A stretch of 64,000 bases of DNA from Bacteroidota bacterium (GTDB taxonomy: Bacteria; Bacteroidota; Bacteroidia; Chitinophagales; BACL12): contig JAKQVC010000064.1 of NCBI GenBank assembly GCA_029571985.1, forward strand, positions 1 to 64,000, given 5' to 3'. A program made the translations under genes and the position numbers. Below, one piece after another: positions 29,002 through 29,881 of the stretch. Every line of letters begins with the position of its first letter. Positions within the stretch are counted from its first letter, which is position 1. Under the pieces are notes generated by a model, which ran no database searches, had not been told where the DNA came from, and saw only the letters and a program-made list of their open reading frames with translations.

Positions 29002-29089
29002 GGAGAGATGGCAGAGCGGTCGATTGCGGCGGTCTTGAAAACCGTTGAGGTGTGAGCCTCCGGGGGTTCGAATCCCTCTCTCTCCGCCA
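29002..29089 (+). tRNA. tRNA-Ser (anticodon UGA)
   Basis: A full cloverleaf can be drawn: acceptor GGAGAGA/TCTCTCC with discriminator G, anticodon stem-loop CGGTCTTGAAAACCG with anticodon TGA, a long variable arm (class II, as in serine tRNAs), and the T arm GGGGG/TTCGAAT/CCCTC. CCA is encoded at 29087-29089. It decodes UCN codons, mainly UCA. The T-arm and acceptor 3' sequence reappears several times just downstream. Confidence 0.96.
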
Positions 29090-29090
29090 A

Positions 29091-29217
29091 CAAATGATTA
29101 TTCAGCCTACCGCAGGCTGAATTTTTTATTTTGGGCAAATTGGACAAGCTCGCTTGGACAAGTTGAACGAAATAAAAAATACAGGTGAGCACAGCGAACT
29201 GGCTGAATAATCATTTG
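29091..29217 (+). repeat. Palindromic element, copy 1
   Basis: The outer arms at 29091-29107 and 29201-29217 are 17-bp perfect inverted repeats. Inside, the left arm also forms a local hairpin (TTCAGCCT/AGGCTGAA). A second inverted pair, ATTTTTTATTT at 29121-29131 with AAATAAAAAAT at 29170-29180, lies further in. The centre holds AAGC-TC-GCTT. The whole could fold as a long hairpin or a cloverleaf-like cruciform. Confidence 0.85.
29101..29131 (+). terminator. Terminator of tRNA-Ser inside the palindromic element
   Basis: The 8-bp stem TTCAGCCT/AGGCTGAA has an ACCGC loop and is followed by TTTTTTATTT. It begins 12 nt after the encoded CCA and is in the right orientation to end the tRNA transcript. 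The same stem can pair instead with the far right arm. Confidence 0.7.
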
Positions 29218-29252
29218 ATGATGCCTCCCCATGTAGGGATCATTTAATTAAC

Positions 29253-29272
29253 CCCTCTCTCTCCGCCAACAA
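29253..29272 (+). repeat. Copy of tRNA-Ser 3' tail (T1)
   Basis: CCCTCTCTCTCCGCCAACAA is a 20-bp exact copy of the tRNA 3' end plus 4 flanking bases (original at 29074-29093). Together the two copies flank palindromic element 1 as direct repeats, as an integrated element flanked by att-like sites would show. Confidence 0.8.
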
Positions 29273-29302
29273 CCTGTTGTTTATTTATTTTTCATTTCTG
29301 CG

Positions 29303-29381
29303 AACTTGAGGTGTGGCCCCGGAAGGGTTCCCCGCCTGCTTGACGCAGGAGGGCAGGGAATCCCTCTCTCTCCGCCAACAA
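29303..29381 (+). pseudogene. Degenerate 3' half of tRNA-Ser with a 28-nt insertion
   Basis: 29303-29330 resembles the variable arm and T-arm start of tRNA-Ser (TTGAGGTGTG then CCGG and GGGTTC). 29359-29381 repeats the T-arm end, acceptor and CCA. Between them, in the T loop, 29331-29358 is a short insert with the arms CCTGC/GCAGG around TTGAC. It cannot be a working tRNA because the 5' half and anticodon are missing. Confidence 0.7.
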
Positions 29382-29505
29382 ATTATCATACAGCCTACCG
29401 CAGGCTGTATTTTTTATTTAACCCAATTTGGACAAGCTCGCTTGGACAAATTGGGTTAAATAAAAAATACAGGTGAGCATAGCGAACTGGCTGTAGGATA
29501 ATTTG
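29379..29505 (+). repeat. Palindromic element, copy 2
   Basis: The outer arms 29379-29395 and 29489-29505 pair with one mismatch in 17. The central arms 29409-29430 and 29447-29468 pair perfectly over 22 bp. The local hairpin is ATACAGCCT/AGGCTGTAT, then TTTTTATTT. Compared with copy 1, bases in the stems differ on both sides, so pairing is kept (TTCAGCC with GGCTGAA becomes TACAGCC with GGCTGTA). Confidence 0.85.
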
Positions 29506-29585
29506 TTGAAGCCTCCCATTTCAGGGATCATGTCAATAATCCCAATTCGAATTGCATAGGATCTCTAAAGTATAAATTGGACAAG

Positions 29586-29693
29586 TTGGGTTAAATAAAA
29601 AATACAGGTGAGCATAGCGAACTGGCTGTAGGATAATTTGTTGAAGCCTCCCATCTCAGGGATCATGTCAATAATCCCAATTCGAATTGCATA
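29586..29693 (+). repeat. Palindromic element, copy 3 (right half only)
   Basis: This 108-nt block repeats 29451-29558 with one difference (T at 29520, C at 29655), a period of 135 nt. The left arm is absent, so the long hairpin cannot form. It ends with the palindrome CAATTCGAATTG, as does the end of copy 2. Confidence 0.85.
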
Positions 29694-29710
29694 ATCACTT
29701 AAGTATAAAT

Positions 29711-29805
29711 TGGACAAGTTGAACGAAATAAAAAATACAGGTGAGCATAGCGAACTGGCTGTAGGATAATTTGTTGAAGCACCCCATCTCAGGGATCATC
29801 AAATT
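29711..29805 (+). repeat. Palindromic element, copy 4 (right half only)
   Basis: It has the same right arm as copies 2 and 3 (AATACAGGTGAGCATAGCG and following), but its first part (GTTGAACGAAAT) matches copy 1. It is therefore a mosaic. It is followed by a tRNA tail copy at 29806. Confidence 0.8.
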
Positions 29806-29824
29806 AATCCCTCTCTCTCAACAA
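29806..29824 (+). repeat. Shortened copy of tRNA-Ser 3' tail (T3)
   Basis: AATCCCTCTCTCTCAACAA matches the tRNA 3' end and flank but lacks the CGCC of the acceptor/CCA. It marks the right edge of the repeat array. Confidence 0.7.
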
Positions 29825-29881
29825 ATTACCTATGTATGAGCCGGTATTTCAGGGTACTAAATACCCATATACACACTTCGA

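Follow-up and report, generated by a model that had tools for sequence, protein, structure and literature searches.

Few docking sites of mobile DNA are as common as tRNA genes, and the part of the gene from the T-loop to the 3′ end is a usual target of integrases. Tandem repeats behind a tRNA gene are known as RtT (RF00391) from the tyrT operon of Escherichia coli, and their origin has, to our knowledge, been unexplained since 1991.

RtT RNA is reported to be released from tRNA operons and has been linked to the stringent response (PMC4986893), and relatives of RtT have been placed within BIMEs (PMC2965389). A further system that acts on tRNA genes is SegB, a free-standing GIY-YIG homing endonuclease of T-even phages. 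According to passages of PMC13096335, the motif at which it cleaves tRNA genes internally is RAWTSGAAC, and by recombination it causes the tRNA and segB to be amplified together in tandem. Here we describe an array behind the tRNA-Ser(UGA) gene of a Bacteroidota bacterium (Chitinophagales, BACL12; assembly GCA_029571985.1), which lies in a window of 64,000 nt, the whole stretch of contig JAKQVC010000064.1 that was analysed. We read this array as a new Bacteroidota variant of RtT-type tRNA-linked repeats.

Results

Architecture of the tRNA-Ser(UGA) array

An earlier note, made from the DNA letters of the window, had described, behind tRNA-Ser, two elements of about 127 nt along with a pair of right halves and several tRNA tail copies, and this arrangement was confirmed (Table 1). 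The two full elements (29091-29217 and 29379-29505) and the two right halves are direct repeats of 73-98% identity, and the predicted folds of the full copies, at -55.7 and -69.4 kcal/mol (z -8.7 and -11.9), were equalled by 0 of 200 shuffles. Core 1 is made up of outer arms, a terminator hairpin (29100-29122) followed by a T-run, a long stem and a conserved apical CAAG..CTTG. In each core the first stem has the pattern of an intrinsic terminator, with 4 terminator-like sites against 1.2 expected, and the core may, by pattern only, work as the terminator of the tRNA.

Table 1. Positions of the features of the tRNA-Ser(UGA) array, numbered along the window
Feature	Position	Strand	Basis or remark
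Intact host gene, tRNA-Ser(UGA)	29002..29089	+	T-loop motif GTTCGAATC (29066) kept in no other copy of the array
Core 1, imperfect 127-nt palindrome	29087..29222	+	direct-repeat comparison, folding, covariance model
Right end of unit 1, what is left of a T-arm copy that has lost its T-loop	29218..29249	+	
First tail copy of tRNA-Ser, 3′ flank included (AACCCCTCTCTCTCCGCCAACAA)	29250..29272	+	
Partial tRNA-Ser copy, variable arm to 3′ flank, T-loop split	29305..29381	+	alignment to tRNA
27-nt palindrome CCCGCCTGCTTGACGCAGGAGGGCAGG between GGTTC and GAATCCC of the partial tRNA-Ser copy	29331..29357	+	
Core 2, full palindrome	29375..29510	+	direct repeats, folding, covariance model
Right end of unit 2 (GTTGAAGCCTCCCATTTCAGGGATCATGTCAATAATCCC)	29506..29543	+	comparison with relatives
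Right-half unit 3 (3′ half of core plus right end), tandem duplicate	about 29577..29693 (core-to-right-end part to 29678)	+	
Right-half unit 4	about 29710..29826 (tail copy from 29806)	+	
Tail copy 3, without CGCC, far edge of the array	29806..29827	+	

Tail copies of the tRNA stand at 29250-29272, 29358-29381 (the end of the partial tRNA at 29305-29381) and 29806-29827. The feature previously described as a damaged tRNA half is indeed a damaged tRNA copy, but it is longer than had been thought, beginning in the variable arm and having its T-loop split by a palindrome; its alignment to tRNA-Ser scores 75.6, while the best of 300 shuffles reached 33.0. The palindrome that splits it is the same as that of the array of tRNA-Glu and GIY-YIG genes described below. 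Within the array, the T-loop motif GTTCSAWTY is found in the intact tRNA-Ser(UGA) gene only and is absent from every displaced copy.

The right end of each unit has the form GAAGCC..CCC..AGGGATC..AATCCC and was counted as the element's own. We assigned the right ends of the window to the element, as T-arm copies, because the right end in relatives is a T-arm copy of the host tRNA. The view that direct alignment identifies all right ends as decayed tRNA-Ser was rejected, the two shortest window ends not scoring above shuffles, and for these two the T-arm origin rests on the cross-host comparison.

The genes flanking the array on both sides are ordinary, and the open reading frames inside it are short and unconvincing. 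An Rfam scan of the window region returned tRNA only, besides chance sub-threshold matches. A hammerhead-like core, suggested by eye by tandem GA pairs in GTGAGC..GCGAAC, was dropped, the conserved CUGAUGA being missing.

A second serine locus and the sister species

The core occurs at two places only in the 4.0-Mb genome, both behind tRNA-Ser genes: that for UGA in the window and that for GGA on another contig. At the tRNA-Ser(GGA) locus the tRNA is separated from the core by two extra tail copies, whose T-loops each contain a 27-nt palindrome. In a sister species from the same genus, the orthologues of both tRNA-Ser genes are likewise followed by the core, which at tRNA-Ser(UGA) is present as one full copy plus three right halves; no empty site for the Ser core was found, the element being present in both species. 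Covariation across genomes had been proposed as a check; in five core copies, compensatory changes affect 16 of the 53 predicted pairs.

The core across the order

We searched 299 genomes of the order with a covariance model of the core, built from the copies in this genome and its sister with the tRNA left out. Beyond the genus, 13 host-strand matches were obtained in 12 genomes (E <= 0.001), all 13 directly behind a tRNA tail, so that the copies at other tRNA 3′ ends for which the earlier note had suggested searching do exist in 12 other genomes of the order. The hosts are Ser(tga) (four times), Ser(gga), Pro(tgg), Pro(ggg), Arg(acg), Gln, Ala(tgc), a tRNA-Leu and a tandem array of Ser tails. 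Since genomes of 2-4 Mb hold some 25-45 tRNA genes, this placement cannot be chance. The tRNA-Leu host (L319, 1360-1525) seemingly has a group I intron in its anticodon arm, with the core after the gene.

In most matches the core is followed on its 3′ side by a GCC.CCCC motif and then by a T-arm copy of the host tRNA, and the right ends fit the tail of their own host better than under shuffled assignments (permutation 0/20000). Three right ends (L317, L320 and L330) reach the tRNA 3′ end, and true direct repeats therefore flank the core there. In place of its T-loop the copy has hairpins (such as AGC-GCA-GCT, AAC-GCA-GTT, GCC-GAA-GGC, TGC-GGA-GCA and GGC-GCA-GCC), which are GNA-capped and have stems that differ yet are complementary. 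Double changes were found at 49 of the 53 pairs, and 89.5% of cells pair compared to 46-49% when slid by one column, in a model-fitted alignment that follows the structure and includes reverse-strand matches of the palindrome. For the distant cores, the choice between homologous and convergent origin rests on scores of 31-52 bits.

Tail copies and palindromes behind other tRNAs

Copies of a tRNA's own tail within 900 bp were found for 8 of the 33 distinct tRNAs of this genome (Phe, Lys, Pro(tgg), Leu(taa), Arg(ccg), Glu, Ser(tga) and Ser(gga)). The earlier suggestion of a non-autonomous element that copies the tRNA 3′ end, or of a family of tRNA-linked duplications, is partly supported: further copies of the core stand at other tRNA 3′ ends in the 12 genomes above, and sibling arrays have empty or near-empty sites in relatives. 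The usual break in the copies of these arrays is at GTTC^GA in the T-loop, but in Leu(taa) it falls one step earlier, and in Lys the T-loop is replaced. A search of the 4-Mb genome for the palindrome as a 24-nt pattern (GCCTGCNNGACGCAGGAGGGCAGG, up to 3 mismatches allowed) returned seven sites, all exact and 7/7 in T-loops of tRNA tail copies, against 0 for the control; four are in the tRNA-Glu array, two at tRNA-Ser(GGA) and one in the window.

Comparison of relatives revealed several differences in array content. First, the tRNA-Arg(acg)-rpmB-rpmG locus of one genus is empty in one species, with 121 bp from the tRNA to rpmB, and filled with a GIY-YIG gene and a split tail in two others. Second, the sister has a single tRNA-Glu, where this genome has an array: the copy that occupies the ancestral position (collinear with the sister) is mutated and dead, with a split T-loop, the second copy is interrupted, and the third is intact and is the working gene, followed by two GIY-YIG units. 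Third, Pro(tgg) has an array here and none in the sister, and Arg(ccg) has three copies here and one remnant in the sister. Lastly, Leu(gag) is followed by an array only in the sister. Empty or near-empty sites, a further expectation of the earlier note, thus exist for sibling arrays (tRNA-Glu, Pro, Arg and tRNA-Arg/rpmB) but not for the Ser element, which the sister also carries. These differences in presence and absence between relatives mean that arrays of this design have been gained or lost on short time scales.

Small GIY-YIG nucleases adjoin tRNA genes

Both tandem units of the tRNA-Glu array contain a gene for a GIY-YIG protein of 78 aa (Pfam PF01541, E 1.8e-14), among whose relatives the catalytic residues of the family are conserved. 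About 5 kb beyond this array (L111, 1488-2600) lies a further GIY-YIG copy with an internal TGA. A match to the 78-aa protein was found in 51 of 100 genomes, comprising this genome and relatives. We also surveyed the 80 best loci more widely, which come from Bacteroidota, Patescibacteria, Neomarinimicrobiota, Ignavibacteria and others. A complete same-strand tRNA lies within 600 bp at 66 of these 80 loci, and no opposite-strand tRNA was seen within that distance. Among the 66 tRNA-adjoining loci, 58 have a partial tRNA copy: 15 of 17 in the layout tRNA, GIY-YIG gene, broken 3′ copy, and 43 of 49 in the mirror layout of broken 5′ copy, GIY-YIG gene, tRNA. In the mirror layout the intact tRNA usually begins 0-10 nt after the GIY-YIG gene, and the 5′ copy has a D-loop palindrome (L182, L166, L212).

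Palindromes in broken copies (62 cases at 41 loci, the commonest being CCTGCCTGCCGGCAGGCAGG) are joined without target duplication and lie mostly in the D-loop, anticodon loop or T-loop; at several GIY-YIG loci the displaced copy is broken elsewhere and its T-loop is intact. The nuclease is present in 23 of the 28 genomes with CCTGCCTGCCGGCAGGCAGG compared to 28 of the 72 without it (Fisher p 1.2e-4, a statistic that ignores relatedness).

The proposal that the loop palindrome is tRNA-specific everywhere was rejected, as 40 of the 49 sites examined in other genomes lie outside tRNAs. CCTGCCTGCCGGCAGGCAGG is dispersed outside tRNAs in genomes G025, G026, G039, G072 and G076, often within other repeats such as GACACAAGACACAA, and its core sequence recurs across phyla. 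At L103 and L099 the GIY-YIG frames appear to continue into the tRNA copy, the predicted C-terminus being translated tRNA sequence; such read-through frames are a possible source of odd C-termini in annotated proteins.

A literature search on bacterial GIY-YIG genes beside tRNAs, partial tRNA copies and the palindrome sequence returned the phage SegB paper only, and relatives of the small GIY-YIG protein are all but absent from phage records (2 records, both of one Rhizobium phage). In our analysis the SegB motif RAWTSGAAC is the antisense of the T-loop motif GTTCSAWTY, a relation that the passages of PMC13096335 do not state. GTTCSAWTY is exact in 73 of the 157 distinct tRNAs of the loci studied, at the T-loop and never in the other orientation.

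Discussion

We consider it about an even call that the window array is a small, nuclease-less, tandemly amplified member of a class of tRNA-linked elements. The unit of such an element would comprise the core as cargo and a copy of the 3′ part of the host tRNA with a split T-loop, placed directly behind the intact tRNA, so that the gene stays functional. The unit occurs behind several tRNA isotypes, each time carrying the T-arm or tail of its own host; copies are broken in the T-loop, or in the D-loop or anticodon loop in other lineages; sibling arrays carry a small GIY-YIG nuclease as cargo; and related genomes differ in the presence of an array at the same tRNA. Spread is probably driven by GIY-YIG cleavage of tRNA genes, a driver that we infer for the window too and regard as the most economical because the nuclease is found in sibling arrays with the same palindrome and its phage relative does much the same.

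Under this reading, a GIY-YIG nuclease would cut tRNA genes, in the T-loop in this lineage, and repair would insert or tandemly amplify the unit, duplicating the tRNA tail. Splitting of the T-loop in the displaced copy would remove the cut site and shorten the direct repeat, which would stabilise the array. The 127-nt core would be non-autonomous cargo, carried and amplified in trans or by recombination between tail copies. Several findings count against this cleavage model. The intact tRNA retains the supposed cut site. The GIY-YIG gene is missing at both Ser loci, that of the window and that of tRNA-Ser(GGA), and displaced T-loops are intact at several GIY-YIG loci. The proteins are small, at about 80 aa, and among solved structures UPF0213 and Slx1, not a phage homing enzyme, are nearest to them. 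The palindrome, too, is dispersed outside tRNAs in other genomes, at the sites counted above.

Passive tandem duplication would require no dedicated enzyme: slippage or unequal crossing-over would have copied the tRNA tail together with the terminator, and palindromes would hitch-hike in neutral DNA. In its favour, each array consists of nearly identical units in tandem, the right-half structure of the Ser arrays matches in both species, as if inherited vertically, and palindromes also occur elsewhere in other genomes. We nevertheless think it unlikely, as the same core lies behind different isotypes in different families, each time with the tail of the new host, the break falls precisely at the T-loop, and GIY-YIG genes are strongly associated with tRNAs.

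Selection for an RNA, as in RtT, could also keep the fold, if the array were co-transcribed with the tRNA and released by processing as a small RNA, or served as a terminator. The same plan in E. coli, where the repeats end in the tRNA-Tyr tail, the strong pairing with compensatory changes and the terminator pattern after the tRNA all speak for this explanation, which we judge quite unlikely on its own: the core begins with a terminator, and most of it would thus be transcribed by read-through only; processes at the DNA level can also keep palindromes; no Rfam RtT match was obtained; and arrays come and go at other tRNAs among close relatives. An RNA role could coexist with a nuclease-driven origin.

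The analogy with integration at a tRNA gene, drawn by the earlier note, is a possible one. A tyrosine recombinase acting in trans would insert the unit at the 3′ part of the tRNA, the intact tRNA being attL and the tail copy attR. An intact tRNA with a flanking tail copy is the classical layout, the target region from T-loop to 3′ end fits, and L317, L320 and L330 have full direct repeats. We hold an integrase-borne satellite to be very unlikely even so, since a Pfam scan of the seven large neighbouring ORFs (22.3-36.8 kb; MutS, DUF481, Sortilin/BNR, MopE/Ig, T9SS tail, glycosyltransferase and one without family) found no integrase, the extra T-loop hairpin of the attR copy would not be made by integration, and sibling arrays carry a GIY-YIG gene, the better-supported partner, and not an integrase. 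Passive duplication, an RtT-like RNA and an integrase satellite are each weaker than the reading that invokes a GIY-YIG nuclease. Misassembly of a repeat-rich locus, named earlier as a case that would undo the finding, is vanishingly improbable and is excluded for the element's existence, because, even though the genome is a 282-contig draft, the second site lies on another, independent contig, both sites recur on two contigs in the sister species, and related arrays are present in other genomes.

Returning to the nuclease-driven reading, a broader and more tentative proposal, possible in our view though doubtful, is that an undescribed class of minimal selfish elements is made up of small GIY-YIG nucleases, palindromes that split loops and tRNA-tail cores, and that it specifically parasitises tRNA genes across Bacteroidota, Patescibacteria and other phyla and rebuilds the tRNA on insertion, with the window array and perhaps E. 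coli RtT as nuclease-less satellites or relics. If this were true, insertions in all three hairpin loops of the tRNA would reflect recognition of extruded cloverleaf DNA. The link between tRNA-linked repeats and GIY-YIG genes may also account for many of the unusual small GIY-YIG genes and fragmentary tRNAs that appear in annotations. The comparison supplies a cross-phylum anatomy for RtT-like repeats, with the host tail copied and the T-loop split, and ties tRNA-linked repeats to a concrete enzyme whose phage relative, as passages of PMC13096335 describe, amplifies tRNA loci, which makes the question testable.

Comparison with known systems

Like integrative elements that attach at tRNAs, the window array keeps the gene intact and has a displaced copy of the tRNA 3′ end on its far side; unlike them, it has no integrase nearby, its unit is about 130-290 bp, and the T-loop of the displaced copy is split. 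It shares with REP/BIME palindromes short palindromes in mosaic arrays and mini-hairpins, but in this genome it lies exclusively behind tRNA genes.

The likeness to SegB, as far as passages of PMC13096335 describe that system, consists of a GIY-YIG gene adjoining tRNA genes, tandem amplification of tRNA plus nuclease and a cleavage motif that is the antisense of the T-loop. The present elements differ in residing in bacterial chromosomes, in a nuclease of about 80 aa and in the palindromes in the loops of broken tRNA copies. As to the traits of GIY-YIG homing-type loci, the window has the split-loop partial tRNA on the far side but, unlike SegB, no GIY-YIG gene in the unit.

RtT was examined in the tyrT-tyrV locus of E. 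coli K-12 as a control, where four RtT units lie behind tRNA-Tyr, each ending in AATCCTTCCCCCACCACCA, which starts at the T-loop. A GNA-capped hairpin (AGCGC-GCA-GCGCT) precedes the tail in three of the four copies, and the fourth has GAGCGAAGCGAC. At gathering score RF00391 had four matches in this control and none in the window region or seven related loci, and because the RtT model does not match, the window array is not an RtT member by this model test. The window array also differs from RtT in the fold of its core, its bidirectional T-runs and its right-end motif, and the Bacteroidota elements stand at many tRNA isotypes, with a nuclease gene in sibling arrays. In plan the two agree: both consist of palindrome-rich units repeated in tandem directly behind a tRNA and ending in the 3′ tail of the host, and the tail copies of RtT start at the same T-loop position as those of the Bacteroidota elements.
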